64,000 nt of DNA, from assembly GCA_033763895.1 (NCBI GenBank), contig JANRJQ010000004.1:372001-436000 (forward strand). Reading direction: 5' to 3'. Position 1 is the first letter of the stretch; each line of letters opens with the position of its first letter. The position numbers were made by a program, and so were the translations under genes. The notes beneath the pieces were generated by a model that saw only the letters and a list, made by a program, of their open reading frames with translations, did no database searches and was not told the origin of the DNA. Origin of the DNA: Chloroherpetonaceae bacterium (lineage in GTDB: Bacteria > Bacteroidota > Chlorobiia > Chlorobiales > Thermochlorobacteraceae). Positions 5,480-60,384 of the stretch are shown piece by piece.

Positions 5480-7627
5480 ATGACGCAAGTATTTAAACGA
5501 ACCCTTGTTACTACCGCTCTCCCCTATGCCAATGGCCCGCTGCACTTGGGGCACTTGGCCGGAACTTTCATTCCTGCTGATATTTTTGTTCGGTATAAAA
5601 AACTGCGGGGCGAGGAAATCATTCACATTGGAGGAAGCGATGAACACGGCGTTCCGATTACACTCTTAGCCGAAAAAGAAGGACTTTCCCCGCAAGCAAT
5701 TGTGGATAGATACCACAATATGCAAAAGGAAGTACTTGCAAAGTTGAATATTGAGCTCGATAATTTTTCGAGAACATCGCTCCCAATTCATCACGATACC
5801 ACGCAGGAATTCTTCCGAGACATTGAAGCAAAAGGCATTTTCGTCAAAAAAACTGAAAAGCAATTTTATGACGAAAAGTCTCAAAAGTTTTTGGCCGATC
5901 GGTATGTTGTGGGCACTTGCCCCGTTTGTGGAAACACCGAGGCCAATGGCGACCAGTGTGAAAACTGCGGAACCTATTTAAGCCCTCAAGAACTTATCAA
6001 CCCCAAAAGCAAACTCACCGGAGAAACACCGATTCTGAAAGAAACAATGCATTGGTACTTTCCGCTTGGGCGTTATCAAAAAGCCTTGGAGGAAATGATT
6101 GATGACCGTGAAAAAAATAGTCATTGGCGGCACAATGTCTTGAATTATACCCGTGAATGGCTTCGCCGCGGGCTTGGCGATAGAGCCATCACGCGCGATA
6201 TGGCGTGGGGTGTTCCCGTACCTTCCGAAAGCTCCGATGCCAAGGGAAAAGTGATTTATGTGTGGTTCGATGCGGTTTTAGGATACATTTCCTCAACAAA
6301 AGAATGGGCGCATAAAATTGGGCAGCCCGAAAAGTGGCGTGAATATTGGCTTCAGGGCGATACAAGGCTCATTCATTTTATCGGGAAAGATAACGTGGTT
6401 TTCCACGCCTTGATGTTTCCTGCGATGTTGATGGCCAAGAATGAAGCGAACTCAAAAGAGAAATATGTTTTGGTGGATCAAATTCCCGCTTCGGAGTTTA
6501 TCAATATTGAAGGAAAGAAGTTTTCGAAGTCGCGTGGGTATGCGGTGTATGCCCACGAATTCTTAGAGAAATTCCCTGCGGATACGCTTCGCTACATGAT
6601 TGCGATTAATTACCCAGAAAACCGCGATACCGATTTCAGTTGGAATGATTTTCAAAATCGCATCAATGGCGAGCTCGCCGATACACTTGGGAATTTTGTG
6701 AAGCGTGCCGTCGATTTCTCCAATTCCCGCTTTGCAGGAGAAGTACAGGCAGATATTACTCCTGAAAAGTGGAATTCATTGGGAATTGATTGGAATAAAA
6801 TTAGAGAAGAACTCGAAGCCAATTATGAAGGTGTTCATATTAAGGAGGCTGCCTTTTTAGCGATGGAAGTGGCACGAACCGCCAATAAATTTCTTACGGA
6901 TTCAGAGCCTTGGAAAGTGATAAAATCAAATCCAGAAGCCGCGAAAGAATCGCTTGCCGTTTCACTTAATTTATGCTTTTCTCTTTCGATGATCTTTTAC
7001 CCAATTTTACCTCAAGCTTCACAGGCCATTCAATTAATGCTTGGTGTCTCGCCGAGTGAAATTGAATGGTACAAAGCATTCTCTCCTTCCCTCAAAAAGG
7101 GTCATAAATTATCCGGAAAAACCGATGTCCTCTTCAAAAAGATTGAGGATAAAGACATTGCTCCTGAACTTGAAAAAATTGCCGCTTTAATCAAACAAGC
7201 GGAAGCCGATGATCTTGCAAAATCAAAATCGAAAATGACCACAGAACCAAAACCGGAAGCCGCACCCGTAGCAGCCGTTGAAAATCCTTATGCCATCAAG
7301 CCTGAAATCACGATTGATGATTTCGATAAAATTGACTTGCGGGTTGCCACTGTTCTCGCCTGCGAAAAAGTCCTGAAGGCTGATAAACTGCTCAAGCTTA
7401 CGGTTAAAATTGGTGACTCGGAGCGCGTGATTCTTTCGGGCATTGCCGAGCACTATACACCAGAGACCTTAATCGGAAAAAATATTGTGGTGGTGGCTAA
7501 TCTTGCGCCTCGCAAAATGCGCGGCATTGAATCGCACGGAATGCTTTTGGCTGTTGAGGGTGAAGATGGAAAAGTGAATGTGGTATTTCCTTCCGGAGAA
7601 TCGATAAACGGGCGGAGAGTGAAATAA
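5480..7627 (+). CDS. metG: Methionyl-tRNA synthetase
   Basis: This class I aminoacyl-tRNA synthetase charges tRNA-Met. The HIGH-like motif is HLGH (residues about 22-25, in PYANGPLHLGHLAG), and the KMSKS-like motif is KFSKS near residue 350. Between them is a zinc knuckle CPVCGNTEANGDQCENC. The C-terminal 110 residues form a tRNA-binding OB-fold domain (from IDDFDKIDLRVATVLACEKV), joined by a linker rich in Ala, Pro and Lys. The length of 715 residues fits the dimeric, E. coli-like type. The next gene starts 2 nt after its stop and is probably co-transcribed. Confidence 0.96.
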   Translation: MTQVFKRTLVTTALPYANGPLHLGHLAGTFIPADIFVRYKKLRGEEIIHIGGSDEHGVPITLLAEKEGLSPQAIVDRYHNMQKEVLAKLNIELDNFSRTSLPIHHDTTQEFFRDIEAKGIFVKKTEKQFYDEKSQKFLADRYVVGTCPVCGNTEANGDQCENCGTYLSPQELINPKSKLTGETPILKETMHWYFPLGRYQKALEEMIDDREKNSHWRHNVLNYTREWLRRGLGDRAITRDMAWGVPVPSESSDAKGKVIYVWFDAVLGYISSTKEWAHKIGQPEKWREYWLQGDTRLIHFIGKDNVVFHALMFPAMLMAKNEANSKEKYVLVDQIPASEFINIEGKKFSKSRGYAVYAHEFLEKFPADTLRYMIAINYPENRDTDFSWNDFQNRINGELADTLGNFVKRAVDFSNSRFAGEVQADITPEKWNSLGIDWNKIREELEANYEGVHIKEAAFLAMEVARTANKFLTDSEPWKVIKSNPEAAKESLAVSLNLCFSLSMIFYPILPQASQAIQLMLGVSPSEIEWYKAFSPSLKKGHKLSGKTDVLFKKIEDKDIAPELEKIAALIKQAEADDLAKSKSKMTTEPKPEAAPVAAVENPYAIKPEITIDDFDKIDLRVATVLACEKVLKADKLLKLTVKIGDSERVILSGIAEHYTPETLIGKNIVVVANLAPRKMRGIESHGMLLAVEGEDGKVNVVFPSGESINGRRVK

Positions 7628-53589: not shown

Positions 53590-54651
53590 ATGAGAGCAAA
53601 CGAAATTAAGGACTATTTATCTGAAAAACTTGGAAGTTCTGTCGATTACTTTGGCGACCCGACGCTTGAGCTCTCGAAACTCGCCAAAATTGAGGAAGCC
53701 GGATACGGAGAAATTTCCTTTATTTCTAACCCGAAGTATGAGAAGTTTTTGACTACCACTGAGGCCTCTGCATTAATCGTTTCAAAAGACCTTAAAATCG
53801 AATCCGCTCGCCCCGGGCTTGGGCTTTTTCAGGTGGATGATGCTTATTTGGCGTTTGTCTTTTTGCTTGAAAAATTTACACCTCCAATCGAATTAATCCG
53901 AAACGGCATTTCACCATCCTCATTTATTCATCCTTCTGCGATTTTGGCTGACGGGGTTTCTGTTGGCGAAAATGCTTTTATTGGAGAAAATGTTAGAATT
54001 GGCAGAAATACCCGAATATTTCAAAATTCAGTCATTCTTGCAGGTTCACTTCTTGGTGAAGATTGTACGATTTACCCAAATGTGACAATCTATCACGGGT
54101 CAAAAATTGGGCATCGAGTAACGATTCACTCGGGTGCGGTTATTGGAGCGGATGGATTTGGTTTCGCACCAAGGTCAGATGGGCGGTATCATAAAATTCC
54201 CCAAATAGGGATTGTACGCATTGGAAACGATGTTGAAATCGGTGCCAATACCACGATTGACCGTGCTACAATTACTGAAACCGTTATCGAAGATGGTGTA
54301 AAAATAGATAACCTTGTTCAAATTGGGCATAACTGCAAAATCGGGAAGAACACCGTCATTGCAGGGCAAGTTGGCATTTCGGGAAGTACGAAAATAGGTG
54401 AAAATTGCCTTTTAGGTGGTCAAGTTGGGCTCGTAGGGCATATTGAAATAGGAAATAAAATCACTATCGGTTCAAAAGCAGGCGTTGCAAAATCGTTTTT
54501 GAACGAAGGGGAATCGCTTCGAGGCATTCCCGCTCGCCCGATTCGCCATCAGTTGCGCCAAGAGGCTTTGCTTGGAAAATTGGCTGATCTAATAGAAACC
54601 GTGAAAGTGATGCAAAAGGAACTTGATGAATTGAAGTCAAAATCGACTTAG
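53590..54651 (+). CDS. lpxD: UDP-3-O-acylglucosamine N-acyltransferase LpxD
   Basis: LpxD adds the N-linked acyl chain in lipid A synthesis. The N-terminal uridine-binding domain (residues 1-95) is followed by left-handed beta-helix hexapeptide repeats (for example SAILADGVSVGENAFIGENV), with the catalytic His in NLVQIGHNCKIG, and a C-terminal helical tail. ATG 53590 is chosen at the conserved start; the open frame begins further upstream (53422) in DNA that is probably the prs promoter region. A lipopolysaccharide-type outer membrane is implied. Confidence 0.93.
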   Translation: MRANEIKDYLSEKLGSSVDYFGDPTLELSKLAKIEEAGYGEISFISNPKYEKFLTTTEASALIVSKDLKIESARPGLGLFQVDDAYLAFVFLLEKFTPPIELIRNGISPSSFIHPSAILADGVSVGENAFIGENVRIGRNTRIFQNSVILAGSLLGEDCTIYPNVTIYHGSKIGHRVTIHSGAVIGADGFGFAPRSDGRYHKIPQIGIVRIGNDVEIGANTTIDRATITETVIEDGVKIDNLVQIGHNCKIGKNTVIAGQVGISGSTKIGENCLLGGQVGLVGHIEIGNKITIGSKAGVAKSFLNEGESLRGIPARPIRHQLRQEALLGKLADLIETVKVMQKELDELKSKST

Positions 54652-54806: not shown

Positions 54807-56153
54807 ATGGAACTTTATCTCCCTTTTGCGCCACTTTTAGCGGCACTCGGTGTGATGCTCACGCTTTCACTTGCAGTTGAGCGTTTTTTAGAGATTGGCA
54901 GTTGGCTATTTGACCAACTTTTTCTTTTTCGCATTGAGATTTACTCATCCTTAAAGCGTGATTTAGAAAAGGAGCAGCTGGCATTTAAGGAAGCCTCGGA
55001 ATTAGATGAAATTCGTTCATTTAATCATGATCTCAGAGAAATCCCTCCAAACCCAAATTTCTCGTTTGTGGAAAAATCATTTGATCTTCTTCCAATGCCT
55101 ATAGGAAATCGAAATTCCATCACAAAAGAATTTTGGTTAAACACTTTAGGCTGTTTTGTAGGAATTGCCGGATGCAAATTCTCAAATTTTTCGATTTTCA
55201 CTTTTCTGCCTTTTGGCAACGATTCCTTGCCTAACACAGTACTTGGTATGGTATTGACCGGTATCATTATTGGCGCAGGAAGTAAGCCGGTACATTTTTT
55301 GATTCGCTTTATTACGGAGAGAAAATTACAAGTATCTCGTCCTGAAAAAATTGTGGGATATCGTGAATTGCTTAGCGCAAACCCATCTGATGAACATGAA
55401 CAGATAAATTCTGAAAGTGCTTCAATACCTTCCGCTACTGTTAAACAAACTACTAACGGATTCAATTCGGCTAATGCTCTGAAAAATGAAGTTTTGACGC
55501 ATGCTCCAATTTCACTAGAAACACTTGTGGGCTACCTGCACCATCAAGGGGTTCATTCTAAAGCGATAGAACATTCTCATCAGCGCACCGCACCAATTGA
55601 TCTTATCGTTTATCATCACACAGCGATGAACAGCAGCGCGCCTTTTTCTGAAGTAATCAAAGAATTCGAACGAAAAAAGTGGCTTGCGGGATATCATGCG
55701 GTAGTGTTTCAGAACGGGGCAATTGAAATTTTAACCCGTTGGGATAGGCGGGGCAATCATGCGGCAGGATACAATTTTCGCTCGCTTGGGCTGGCATTTC
55801 AAGGCAATTATGAAACAAACCCTAAAGTACCGTTTTCAAATGTGAATGGCAGGCTTGGTTCTTCGCAAGCCACATTGCCTCAGTTACATGCAGCTGCTCG
55901 CGTTATTGCGCTATGGCACTTTCTTTATCAAGTTCCGCTCGAATTCCCTCAGGCAGTTTCAGATAAAAAGGTTATTTCAAAAGCGATAAAAGGAATTGTT
56001 CCTCATCGTCACTTGGCATTTAAGGCTTGCCCCGGAGAAAGTTTTCAATTTGATCTGTTTCAACAAACAATTGTTGAATATGTAACCGCTTGGAAAAAAT
56101 TAGATGGATTTGAAACTGCACTAAAAAATTTCAAAACACAACCCTACTTATGA
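54807..56153 (+). CDS. Membrane-anchored N-acetylmuramoyl-L-alanine amidase, type 2 fold
   Basis: The first 180 residues hold about three hydrophobic segments (LLAALGVMLTLSLAV, GCFVGIAGCKFSNFSI, VLGMVLTGIIIGAGSKPVHF). A linker follows. The C-terminal domain is Amidase_2/PGRP-like: LIVYHHTAMNSSAPF, GYHAVVFQNGAIEIL, GNHAAGYNFRSLGLAFQGNY and PHRHLAFKACPGESF. Zinc ligands are His of YHHT, His of PHRH and Cys of ACPG. It should cut peptidoglycan stem peptides. Phage endolysins usually lack such a membrane part. It overlaps the next gene by 4 nt (ATGA) and begins a four-gene cassette. Confidence 0.86.
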   Translation: MELYLPFAPLLAALGVMLTLSLAVERFLEIGSWLFDQLFLFRIEIYSSLKRDLEKEQLAFKEASELDEIRSFNHDLREIPPNPNFSFVEKSFDLLPMPIGNRNSITKEFWLNTLGCFVGIAGCKFSNFSIFTFLPFGNDSLPNTVLGMVLTGIIIGAGSKPVHFLIRFITERKLQVSRPEKIVGYRELLSANPSDEHEQINSESASIPSATVKQTTNGFNSANALKNEVLTHAPISLETLVGYLHHQGVHSKAIEHSHQRTAPIDLIVYHHTAMNSSAPFSEVIKEFERKKWLAGYHAVVFQNGAIEILTRWDRRGNHAAGYNFRSLGLAFQGNYETNPKVPFSNVNGRLGSSQATLPQLHAAARVIALWHFLYQVPLEFPQAVSDKKVISKAIKGIVPHRHLAFKACPGESFQFDLFQQTIVEYVTAWKKLDGFETALKNFKTQPYL

Positions 56154-56815
56154 ACCCATTGGATTCGGTAAAAACGGGAGTTGAGACATTCTCGAAGGAT
56201 GCCATTACGCTCACGACGTTTGTATTTTTCATTTATCTCACTCTTGCCATAACAGTAGAACGGATTTTAGAGTATCTCAATAGCCTCTTTAAGTATGTAG
56301 AGATGAGGCATGATTTTTTCTCTGGTTTTTGGCTTCATCGTGCCAAGTTTGTTCAAGAGAAACTTGAACTTGCGTATGCACTTCAACAAAACTCTGCTAT
56401 AGGGAAAACCGTAGTGGAATCATTTTCATCTCATTTGCTAAGCAGTTCCAAAGAAGGTGAGAAGAAATCGATTTCTATCGAAAAAGTTCGAATTTTTTGG
56501 GTGAAGGCGGTCAATCGCGTGATGTCTTTTTTTCTAGCGTTGTTTCTCTTAAAAGTTGTTTTGCAGAATACGGTGCTTGAAGCCAAATCGGCACTTTTGC
56601 TGAAGAGTATCCTTGATGTTTATGGGTTCAATCGCTTTAAGTCAATTTTTGAGTTTCTTTTCGATAACATTGGTCAGGAGGGTTTAGAAATTTCACTTAC
56701 TGCACCATCCGTGTTTATTGTTTCAGCGCTGATTTCAATGGGCGTTGAACCGCTTCACAATCTTATTGTCCAAGCCGAAAAAAAGCTTAAGTCATCAACG
56801 GAAAAATCATCATAA
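56150..56815 (+). CDS. Membrane protein related to the amidase N-terminal region
   Basis: A 221-residue protein has hydrophobic segments near residues 20-40, 115-130 and 175-190. It shares pattern with the membrane region of the upstream amidase: TVERILEYLNSLF against AVERFLEIGSWLF, and SALISMGVEPLHNLI against GIIIGAGSKPVHFLI. The two are therefore likely paralogous membrane domains. It overlaps the amidase by 4 nt and the next gene by 1 nt. A holin-like or partner role is possible but not shown. Confidence 0.74.
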   Translation: MNPLDSVKTGVETFSKDAITLTTFVFFIYLTLAITVERILEYLNSLFKYVEMRHDFFSGFWLHRAKFVQEKLELAYALQQNSAIGKTVVESFSSHLLSSSKEGEKKSISIEKVRIFWVKAVNRVMSFFLALFLLKVVLQNTVLEAKSALLLKSILDVYGFNRFKSIFEFLFDNIGQEGLEISLTAPSVFIVSALISMGVEPLHNLIVQAEKKLKSSTEKSS

Positions 56816-57294
56816 TGGAGTTTGTTAAATCTATATTCAGTTTTCAACTCAATTCATTTTGGGTTGATGTTCTTATCCTTACCGTGGTTTTTATTTTGGG
56901 CATATTTCTTTTTGTACGATTAGAGCTGAAAGGAAGTGGAAATCGGGGATGGTTTTATACGGTTATGTTTATTTTATTGGGGTTTGGCATAGGAGGGATA
57001 GCGTGGAGAAGAAAGCGGTTATTTGAAGAACTAAAAAAGCGAGAGGAAGAAATCGCCGCGATGGAAAAGCGGTACGATGAATTAAAGCGAAAGGCGGAAA
57101 TCAGTGATGCCGAGTATCAAGCGGCTTCGGAACGGTTAAAGCAATCGAAGTTAGAAAGTGCCGAAGCCATAGCCAATGCTGATGAAAGCTTACGCAAAAG
57201 GGTTGAAGAAATAAAAAAGCATCACGAAACCATAACACCAGAAGAACTCTATGATGAAATCAAAAAAATACTTGGAACGCCTGCGCCGCAATAG
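56815..57294 (+). CDS. Two-helix membrane protein with coiled coil
   Basis: Two membrane helices (residues about 15-35 and 45-64) precede a long charged coiled coil (residues 65-135, for example LFEELKKREEEIAAMEKRYD). The C-terminus is PEELYDEIKKILGTPAPQ. The layout recalls inner-membrane spanin subunits (Rz), though those normally have one helix. It overlaps the amidase-side gene by 1 nt and the next gene by 44 nt, a nested arrangement as in Rz/Rz1. No homologue is recognised. Confidence 0.7.
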   Translation: MEFVKSIFSFQLNSFWVDVLILTVVFILGIFLFVRLELKGSGNRGWFYTVMFILLGFGIGGIAWRRKRLFEELKKREEEIAAMEKRYDELKRKAEISDAEYQAASERLKQSKLESAEAIANADESLRKRVEEIKKHHETITPEELYDEIKKILGTPAPQ

Positions 57295-57871
57295 AATTTC
57301 ATTCTTACAGCTTTTTTCACTTGGCAGATTGGCCATCCTAAGTCTAATGGTTTCAGTGAACTTGTACGCCCAAGAAGTGAAGTTTAGTATAGGTGGAAAG
57401 AGTTTTCAAGTCAGCCGATTGGATGCCAATACTTTTGTTGCAAAAAAGGATTCGTCTGTTGTAGTCATTTTACCGATGGATACATTGTCGCGATTGGTTG
57501 AGCGGGTTCGCATTTTGCAAGAGCGGGTGAAGCGAGATAGCATTGAAATTGCCTCACAATTGAAATTGATTCAAAACTTTGAAGCCTATAAAGCTGCCGC
57601 TGATACCAATCTTATCAGGCAAAAATCATTGATTGCTGTAACAGACAGCATTTCTGAGGCTTATAAAAAGCTTTACATTGATCTGAAATCAATTTCGGGC
57701 AGCAGCGATTATCGCTTGCTGATTGGGGGTGCCGGATGGAGAGAGCGTGACGAAGTAAATCTCTATGGGCATTTCGGCTTTGGCTATCGTGATTGGCAGT
57801 TTATGTTCACTTATGGTTTTACAGGATTTGCAACAAATTCATTGAGTATCATTAAAGTCTTTGGCTTTTGA
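57251..57871 (+). CDS. Exported protein with coiled coil and barrel-like end
   Basis: An export segment (FSLGRLAILSLMVSVNLYAQ, cleaved after AQ) is followed by a short beta domain (KFSIGGKSFQVSRLD), a coiled coil (TLSRLVERVRILQERVKRDS) and a C-terminal Gly/aromatic stretch (LYGHFGFGYRDWQFMFTYGF) ending in Phe, suggestive of outer-membrane insertion. It starts within the coiled-coil gene (44-nt overlap, different frame), with a weak ribosome site GAAGAACT. The set resembles an outer-membrane spanin partner, but this is inference. Confidence 0.68.
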   Translation: MMKSKKYLERLRRNRISFLQLFSLGRLAILSLMVSVNLYAQEVKFSIGGKSFQVSRLDANTFVAKKDSSVVVILPMDTLSRLVERVRILQERVKRDSIEIASQLKLIQNFEAYKAAADTNLIRQKSLIAVTDSISEAYKKLYIDLKSISGSSDYRLLIGGAGWRERDEVNLYGHFGFGYRDWQFMFTYGFTGFATNSLSIIKVFGF

Positions 57872-57891: not shown

Positions 57892-60384
57892 CTATTCATA
57901 CCGCAAACTCTTCACCGGATTGGTTAAGGCTACGCGAATGGAATGTGCTGAAACGGTTATAGTTGCGATCATTATTCCTAACAGAATTGAAAAGAAAAAG
58001 AGAGAGAGTTTTGGCTCGGTATGATAGGCAAAACTATTGAGCCACTCTTTCATCACAACATGCGTAATTGGGATTGCAATCACAAATGCAATACCGACCA
58101 ACTTAAGAAAATCGGCTGCAATCATTGAAAAGATATCTCCGACTGAAGCTCCCAAAACCTTTCGAATTCCAATTTCTTTTGTTCGCTCTTCCGCAGTAAA
58201 AGCTGATAATCCAAAAAGCCCAAGTGAGCCGATAGCAACCGCAATGACCGCAAAGACGCTCAGTAAATATCCAAATCGAAATTGATTTCGATATTGTGCT
58301 TCATATCTCTCCGAAAGAAAACTGAATCTTAAATCACTATTTTGAATCACTCTTGCCCAAATCGATTTTATTTCGCGAATCGTATTTTCAACCGACTCCG
58401 AGGATTCACAAGCAGCCGGCGAAAGTTTAAGACTGAGAGAGCTAAATTGACCCGGGAAAATTCGCAATGCAAGCGGCTCAATTTTGGTTTGAAGCGACTT
58501 ATAGTGAAAATCTTTCACCACACCAATAACTTCACCATCTCCCGGAAAAAGTTTGGTAATTTTTTTCCCTAAAGCCTCCTCGGGTGACTTGAAACCCAAG
58601 GTTTGAATCGCCGTTTCATTAAGCAATATCCCTCGGGAGCACTGTGTAGAAAATCCGTATTCGGTATTCATCATTTCCAGTGGTTCTCCCTTTCGATACG
58701 GCCTTCCGGCAACAGTGGTCAGTTCATATTGGTCAATAAATTGATCATCGATAAGGAACATATTCATTTCAGTGCGAAGCGGCTCTTTCCCCTCACTCAA
58801 TTCGATATTCATAAGCCAAGTACCTACGGGTGCTGATGGAACATTACCGGAAAGGCTGACACTTGCGATATAAGCCGACTTTGCAAATTCATTTTTTAGT
58901 GCTTCAAGTCGGGCTCTCGCTTCTTCATTTTCGACATCAATAACAATCATTGGGGTTGTACTAAAACCTAAGGGTTTGGAATTCATGTAATTGATTTGCG
59001 ACTTAACAATAAGTGCAGCGATAATTAACGCTGCAGAAATTGAAAATTGAAATACAACGAGAGCTTTTCTCACTATCCTACTGCTTTTTTGGCGTGAATA
59101 CAGTGCGGAACCAGAGGGAAGAAATCGAGAGAGAACTGCGGCTGGATAAAGCCCTGCAGCAACACCTACGATAAAAGCAGATAAAAAAAAGAGAATGGTG
59201 TTACTTATCGGTATAGATGTAAACCCAAGCAACGAAAGGGCTGATGAACCTAACGATAACTTCTTTTCAGTAAAAGCATTGAATTCAGGTAAAAGAACTT
59301 CGATTATTCCTATGGCGATAATTGAGGACAATAGGGTAAGCATTACTGATTCCGCAATAAATTGAATTGCAATATGTTTTCGCTCTGCCCCGAGTGTTTT
59401 TCGGATTCCTATTTCTTTGTATCGTCTCATTGAACGGGCAGTTGCAAGGTTGATGAAATTGATCCCTGCCAATATCAAAATCACAAGTCCTATTGTTGAA
59501 AAAAGCAGAATTGCGTTCATATTCCCAACTTCCGACATCTGATTTTCCAGTTCTGACCTTAAGTAAATGTCTTTTAGTGGTTCAAGAAGAAGTTGAATTT
59601 TGAGGTTATCTCCCTTTATTCGTTCATTGAGTAGTTTCTCAGCCGTTGCTTTTAGTTCTTGTTCAAACTGTTGTAACAAGACGCCCTTATGAAGAAGGAC
59701 ATAAGTATAGTAGGAGGAAGATGACCAATTATCCATCATCCAAGCGACCCCGGGAATTAGTTCCAACGTGCGAAATGACCCTAGAATCTCAAAGCAGATA
59801 TGAGATTGTTTTGGCGGGTCTTTGATTACTCCCGTTATGGTGACCTCGCCAAATGAGGTTTTAAGTTTTTCTCCAATAATTGCCGTGTGACCAAATCTTT
59901 TTTGTGCAAACGATTCCGAAACCACCATAGAAAAAGGAATCTCTAAGGCAGTTTCCGGATTGCCTTGAATAAGTTCAAACGAAAACACATTGAAGAACTC
60001 TTTATCTGCAAAAAGGATTTCATTGGTTTTAAACTTGGTTCCTTTTGAAATTGATTGAAATTCGATTTGCCAATCTTTTCCACCAAACTTGAAAAGGCGA
60101 ATCGCCGATTCAATCGTCGTCATTTTTTCTTTCATCATTTTGCCAAAAGGTGCGGGCATAACGGCTGAAACTTCTGCCTTACCGTCACGAATCGAGCGCC
60201 GGCCAATACGGATAATTCGATCTTTTTTTTCGTGAAATTCATCAAAGGCAAGTTCATCAGCGACATAAAGGACAATCATCCCTGCAGAAGCTAGCCCAAG
60301 CGCTAATCCAATAAGATTTATTACCGTGTAAGTTTTTTGACGTAGCATATTTCGCCACGCCGTTAGCAGATAGTTTTTTAACAT
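57892..60384 (-). CDS. MacB/FtsX-type ABC transporter permease
   Basis: This large permease (830 residues) has two FtsX-like halves, each with an extracellular MacB-type domain. The start is MLKNYLLTAWRNMLRQKTY, and helix groups are near residues 20-40, 285-450 and 720-815. The motif EIGIRKTLGAERKHIAIQF recurs in the second half as EIGIRKVLGASVGDIFSMI, showing internal duplication. It belongs to the Bacteroidota-type MacB-like export permeases. It lies in one direction with the ATPase and adaptor, with an 81-nt gap to the ATPase. Confidence 0.9.
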   Translation of the reverse strand: MLKNYLLTAWRNMLRQKTYTVINLIGLALGLASAGMIVLYVADELAFDEFHEKKDRIIRIGRRSIRDGKAEVSAVMPAPFGKMMKEKMTTIESAIRLFKFGGKDWQIEFQSISKGTKFKTNEILFADKEFFNVFSFELIQGNPETALEIPFSMVVSESFAQKRFGHTAIIGEKLKTSFGEVTITGVIKDPPKQSHICFEILGSFRTLELIPGVAWMMDNWSSSSYYTYVLLHKGVLLQQFEQELKATAEKLLNERIKGDNLKIQLLLEPLKDIYLRSELENQMSEVGNMNAILLFSTIGLVILILAGINFINLATARSMRRYKEIGIRKTLGAERKHIAIQFIAESVMLTLLSSIIAIGIIEVLLPEFNAFTEKKLSLGSSALSLLGFTSIPISNTILFFLSAFIVGVAAGLYPAAVLSRFLPSGSALYSRQKSSRIVRKALVVFQFSISAALIIAALIVKSQINYMNSKPLGFSTTPMIVIDVENEEARARLEALKNEFAKSAYIASVSLSGNVPSAPVGTWLMNIELSEGKEPLRTEMNMFLIDDQFIDQYELTTVAGRPYRKGEPLEMMNTEYGFSTQCSRGILLNETAIQTLGFKSPEEALGKKITKLFPGDGEVIGVVKDFHYKSLQTKIEPLALRIFPGQFSSLSLKLSPAACESSESVENTIREIKSIWARVIQNSDLRFSFLSERYEAQYRNQFRFGYLLSVFAVIAVAIGSLGLFGLSAFTAEERTKEIGIRKVLGASVGDIFSMIAADFLKLVGIAFVIAIPITHVVMKEWLNSFAYHTEPKLSLFFFSILLGIMIATITVSAHSIRVALTNPVKSLRYE

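Follow-up and report, generated by a model that had tools for sequence, protein, structure and literature searches.

The window, a 64,000-nucleotide stretch of a Chloroherpetonaceae bacterium contig, carries a conserved four-gene operon encoding a membrane-anchored zinc amidase, a second membrane protein related to its anchor, a two-helix membrane protein with a coiled coil, and a coiled-coil protein that is exported and shows outer-membrane traits. The best supported mechanism for this operon, although not a proven one, is that of a bacterial trans-envelope amidase device that would work like a T10SS or a lysis cassette and whose hydrolase would carry its membrane gate as a fused domain; we place its probability just short of even, and a non-lytic role in wall remodelling is a close and serious rival. 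Only the amidase appears to belong to a known family, while the other three are orphans as judged from Pfam, NCBIfam and PHROGs, in which genes 2 to 4 found no convincing match; the operon is nevertheless conserved in several phyla. As a small gene set it is a candidate means, independent of phages, for diderm bacteria to open or bridge their envelope. It also raises the question of how an amidase that is tethered, and apparently cytoplasmic, gains access to peptidoglycan.

Organization of the four-gene operon

The cassette is flanked by lpxD and by an FtsX-like ABC transporter permease/ATPase (Table 1). Its four genes are as tightly packed as the original prediction had stated, i.e., with overlaps of 4, 1 and 44 nt between genes 1/2, 2/3 and 3/4, respectively, as measured on the window ORFs, and they are not chance ORFs, since homologues of each of them recur in other phyla with the gene order unchanged. 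The same prediction had read the last overlap as a nested arrangement of the Rz/Rz1 kind, which was not upheld: across loci, gene 4 starts between −73 and +395 nt relative to the end of gene 3, while the 44-nt overlap is peculiar to the window locus and depends on the choice of start. Given this variable spacing, the nested overlap was rejected as a functional feature.

Table 1. Features of the operon and its flanks (positions in the window)
Feature	Position	Strand	Size, basis or remark
Four-gene cassette	54807–57871	+	ORF list; gene order kept in relatives
Gene 1: N-terminal 3-TM domain fused to C-terminal zinc N-acetylmuramoyl-L-alanine amidase (Amidase_2)	54807–56153	+	448 aa
Gene 1 membrane domain (~residues 1–190)	54807–55376	+	ER..E and G.G..P motifs in common with gene 2; predicted N-out, C-in
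Gene 1 amidase domain	55587–56039	+	Pfam; zinc ligands H270 (55614), H400 (56004), C408 (56028)
Gene 2: 3-TM protein paralogous to the membrane domain of gene 1, lacking an amidase	56150–56815	+	221 aa
Gene 3: two hydrophobic segments, then a coiled coil (~57007–57234)	56815–57294	+	159 aa; conserved C-terminal S/TPEE..L motif
Gene 4: exported coiled-coil protein	57251–57871	+	206 aa
Gene 4 signal peptide	~57251–57370
Gene 4 small beta domain
Gene 4 helix	57476–57694		73 residues
Gene 4 C-terminal amphipathic strands	57710–57868		final F
lpxD (upstream flank)	53611–54651	+	conserved in 9/9 family genomes searched
FtsX-like ABC transporter permease (flank, outside the module)	57892–60384	−

An intact amidase joined to a membrane domain

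Gene 1, the sole Amidase_2 gene of the window genome, matches this family over residues 261–411 (Pfam E-value 1.2e-13). The zinc ligands H270, H400 and C408 are invariant in 28/28 homologues, Y296 is kept in 26 of the 28, and position 406 is K or T in 26/28; the spacing of these residues equals that of H17, Y46, H122, K128 and C130 in T7 lysozyme. In the structural model the amidase domain mostly exceeds a pLDDT of 90, and it aligns with solved endolysins, PGRPs and AmpD, the best match being LysC (6ssc; VIA-align Z 18.3). A catalytically intact zinc amidase is strongly supported by these sequence features. The Amidase_2/PGRP/T7 lysozyme/AmpD proteins resemble gene 1 in fold, in their H, H and C zinc ligands, in the Tyr and Lys/Thr residues and in T7-like spacing, but the N-terminal 3-TM domain that gene 1 has in common with gene 2 is not seen in them. 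When the whole of gene 1 was used in a fold search, nothing informative matched beyond the amidase domain, and literature searches turned up no description of a membrane-anchored amidase module.

The N-terminal domain of gene 1 contains three hydrophobic segments, and gene 2 is a paralogue of this domain (HHalign probability 99.7%, E-value 2e-25), with conserved polar motifs located inside the TM helices of both. The original description of gene 1 as a peptidoglycan amidase with a membrane N-terminus, and of gene 2 as a related membrane protein, is thus substantiated. Across 28 homologues, the K+R content of gene 1 per 100 residues is 4.9 at the N-terminus, 16.7 in loop 1, 4.3 in loop 2 and 23.2 after TM3; gene 2 follows the same pattern save for N-terminal extensions in some members, and some of its homologues (L073, L076 and L077) possess an extra N-terminal segment resembling a signal peptide. 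Together, the charge bias and the extra segments point to an N-out, C-in orientation and suggest that the amidase resides on the cytoplasmic side, a placement that rests on the charge bias. TM3 of gene 1 is, however, split at the GxGxxP motif in the model, so that the segment might instead form a re-entrant hairpin and leave the amidase in the periplasm.

Matches of the gene 1 N-terminal domain and gene 2 to PHROG holins are at chance level (E-values 0.007–0.2, the best being 0.0069). The 3-TM unit has the same N-out layout as MotA, TolQ and ExbB, but an ExbB/TolQ-type motor found no support in HHalign, where the probability was 1–2% with a shallow profile of seven sequences.

Genes 3 and 4

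Gene 3 encodes two hydrophobic segments plus a coil, in agreement with its earlier description as a two-helix membrane protein with a coiled coil. Its topology is ambiguous because the loop and the post-TM2 segment are both positively charged, and the coiled coil could be cytoplasmic. The Rz-like family phrog_739 was matched by 9 of 20 gene 3 members (best E-value 2e-6), but shuffled controls also match Rz-like profiles (3/10 block-shuffled coils match at least one), and the matches of gene 3 are therefore in part a composition effect, which weakens the case for homology to Rz.

The AlphaFold model of gene 4 (pLDDT 85.7) starts with a signal helix, continues through a small beta domain into a helix of 73 residues and finishes with three to four long strands, of which three are confident and the end is of low confidence. 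An aromatic residue (F, Y or W) closes the sequence in 18/19 homologues, as is typical of proteins that form outer-membrane barrels. The family has a signal-peptidase-I-like site (..AQ, read by eye) with no Cys at +1, and so lacks a lipobox. That gene 4 encodes a coiled-coil protein which is exported and has outer-membrane traits is strongly supported, and the modelled strands and the final aromatic residue are consistent with the barrel-like end that had been predicted for it.

With three or four strands per chain, a gene 4 barrel would need to oligomerize, and a YadA-like trimer may be envisaged. YadA-type trimeric anchors resemble gene 4 in having a coiled coil, then approximately four strands of amphipathic character, and an aromatic residue at the end; gene 4 differs from them in being much shorter, in carrying a small N-terminal beta domain and in showing no sequence match, YadA_anchor being absent among the best 25 of 30 Pfam families for gene 4 and Hia (2gr7) reaching a Z of only 3.0. 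The fold search with gene 4 returned no informative match.

Distribution and inheritance

The same four-gene order was found at 19 loci (the window, L017, L019–L025, L061, L063, L065–L071 and L078) belonging to Chlorobiota, Ignavibacteria, Bacteroidia, KSB1/Calditrichota and one gammaproteobacterial MAG, which supports a real, conserved four-gene envelope module. Gene 3 of L025 was counted by position and form only, and L078 was included though two separate frames make up its gene 1 (101–986; a pseudogene or an assembly error), genes 2 to 4 being intact at that locus.

When 40 near relatives were searched with a single protein, nothing matched outside the window's own genome, and among the 394 genomes of its phylum-level group full-length relatives of gene 1 occur in two others. 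In these same 394 genomes the gene 2 profile placed gene 2 beside gene 1 in the window genome and these two, and additionally detected one distant lone protein; the original prediction had regarded wide occurrence apart from the amidase as telling against the module, and for gene 2 such occurrence was not observed. The lone protein, a 336-aa membrane protein (L086 of genome G172, 5566–6576, minus strand) with no amidase nearby, displays an ‘ER..E’ helix and, at its C-terminus, a hairpin resembling gene 2 (GLGSNPTH).

A scan of 84,980 species genomes located relatives in KSB1, Ignavibacteriales, Bacteroidia, Calditrichaceae, Caldithrix and the gammaproteobacterial MAG. In the phylum-level group to which a KSB1 genome belongs, 19/82 genomes have gene 1; a third group (188 genomes) contained no full-length gene 1 and a fourth (299 genomes) contained it only in the known MAG, the remaining matches in both being essentially stand-alone amidases.

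Genes 1 and 2 occur without genes 3 and 4 at three loci (L018, L026 and L027). Two genomes, G401 (L026 and L068) and G402 (L027 and L061), each carry one two-gene and one four-gene copy, which suggests divergent roles for the two forms. In a divergent branch, the proteins encoded after genes 1 and 2 are larger: a membrane protein (L076 and L077) and an exported one (L076). This KSB1-group variant (L076, 3533–5180; L077, 850–1572; both minus strand) encodes a conserved two-TM protein of 240–249 aa after genes 1 and 2, and L076 additionally a 327-aa exported protein; these are possible replacements of genes 3 and 4.

Pairwise distances of genes 1 to 4 are correlated (r 0.85–0.93), and for the two gene pairs tested 0/2000 label shuffles reached the observed correlation. 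Such correlation is expected of a unit travelling together, shared species history also contributing, and inheritance of the four genes as one unit is strongly supported by the sequence comparisons. The window's family retains an rplY-like gene, prs and lpxD. Five sister genomes keep prs–lpxD without the cassette and have unrelated genes after lpxD, and the cassette was therefore either gained in the window lineage or lost in all five; its horizontal acquisition by the window genome forms part of the preferred explanation and is as tentative as the whole.

A sporadic and apparently gained module with a predicted cytoplasmic amidase would also suit defence by abortive infection, whereby the enzyme and its membrane partners kill the cell when triggered. 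We consider this improbable: PADLOC returned no specific match, only coiled-coil matches of gene 3 to SMC-like proteins, the flanks are housekeeping genes, and an outer-membrane component would be unusual.

Comparison with phage lysis cassettes and T10SS

No further gene besides the cassette is common to the distant loci, which argues against a fifth member, and no conserved cargo, regulator or phage gene lies near the cassette at the loci compared; the window cassette itself has no phage around it, as the original prediction had noted. Scans of viral contigs and phage genomes revealed no relative of full-length gene 1, gene 2 or gene 4, the phage matches being confined to the amidase domain. 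Phage holin-endolysin-spanin cassettes are similar to the operon in division of labour, in compact overlapping genes and in the endolysin-type amidase fold, but differ in that no phage homologues were found for the membrane domain or for genes 2 and 4 and that no nested Rz/Rz1 pair is conserved. The original prediction of a phage-lysis-like module is supported as regards its list of parts, but not as regards phage descent of the membrane and coiled-coil components. Direct capture of a lysis cassette from a phage, retained after the remaining prophage decayed, would account for the endolysin/PGRP fold, the Rz-like form of gene 3 and the compact, overlapping genes; this already weakened explanation is nonetheless very improbable, given the lack of viral relatives, the absence of recurring phage genes at the loci, and the bacterial nature of a module that is found in several phyla and is old (gene families 14–44% identical to the window).

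The nearest functional parallel of the operon is the T10SS, which lies outside prophages and whose core pairs a holin with a peptidoglycan hydrolase, spanins being optional (PMC13284979, PMC10847048), and which in Yersinia and Serratia is located among housekeeping genes (PMC10847048). Like the T10SS of Serratia marcescens (ChiWXYZ) and Yersinia entomophaga (HolA-PepB-Rz-Rz1), the operon stands by itself on the chromosome among housekeeping genes and combines a hydrolase of peptidoglycan with small proteins of the membrane and others that have coiled coils. In both, the hydrolase and membrane-protein pair can stand without the other two, the gene 1 and 2 pairs that lack genes 3 and 4 paralleling the T10SS core with its optional spanins. 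The operon differs, however, in that the hydrolase is fused to a 3-TM domain, that no clear holin was recognized, that gene 3 has two TM segments, that gene 4 is a probably barrel-type exported protein instead of an o-spanin lipoprotein, and that there is no sign of phage descent.

A proposed gated trans-envelope device or a possible remodelling complex

Under the preferred reading, the products of genes 1 and 2 would assemble into a hetero-oligomer of the inner membrane and keep the amidase on its cytoplasmic side, the extra signal-peptide-like segment of some gene 2 homologues fitting the N-out orientation. An oligomeric barrel would fix gene 4 in the outer membrane, a trimer with four strands per chain yielding 12 as in YadA-type anchors, and the gene 4 helix would reach back through the periplasm, while gene 3 would link the inner-membrane and outer-membrane sides. 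Upon a signal, the membrane domain of genes 1 and 2 would open or rearrange such that the amidase meets peptidoglycan, and the bridge of genes 3 and 4 would act on the outer membrane. The holin-like gate would thus be part of the hydrolase protein, while the place of the o-spanin lipoprotein would be taken by a protein anchored through a barrel; lysis, secretion or vesicle release may be the outcome. That the operon represents a class of bacterial lysis or secretion device not derived from known phages is a possibility we consider less likely than not; here the zinc amidase would have a gating domain of its own, the paralogue without catalytic function would complete this gate, and the o-spanin would be replaced by an outer-membrane barrel, formed by several chains, that bears a periplasmic coiled coil.

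Several observations weigh against such a device: the gene 1 N-terminal domain and gene 2 seem to lack holin homology beyond chance-level PHROG scores, gene 3 has two TM segments and gene 4 no lipobox, and neither cargo, regulator nor phage gene is conserved nearby. The tether could, moreover, restrict the amidase to local, non-lytic work. The main rival is accordingly a non-lytic trans-envelope complex for wall remodelling or tethering, Tol-Pal-like in logic, in which genes 1 and 2 fix the amidase and genes 3 and 4 link the membranes, for example for local wall opening for another machine, for division or for outer-membrane attachment. The membrane tether on the hydrolase, the polar motifs in the TM helices, the outer-membrane-type C-terminus of gene 4, the spread within KSB1/Calditrichota (19/82 genomes) and the lack of a regulator or cargo alongside are all consistent with this role. 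The predicted cytoplasmic location of the amidase and the unsupported homology to ExbB/TolQ/MotA detract from it, as does a sporadic presence, including absence from sister genomes, that fits a core housekeeping function poorly; it is overall a serious alternative, though less likely than not.

Search for injection-particle genes in carrier genomes

The suggestion that the cassette releases contractile injection particles was not sustained: the eCIS marker Pvc16_N (PF14065) occurs in 2/13 carrier genomes, and the tail sheath PF04984 exceeded the cut-off in none of 19, and none occurs in the window genome. The near-absence of contractile-tail genes in the carriers tested speaks against this function. 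The gammaproteobacterial MAG (G400; L029, L141 and L142) harbours a candidate eCIS locus, consisting of a Pvc16_N match and sub-threshold sheath matches, on a different contig from that of the cassette.
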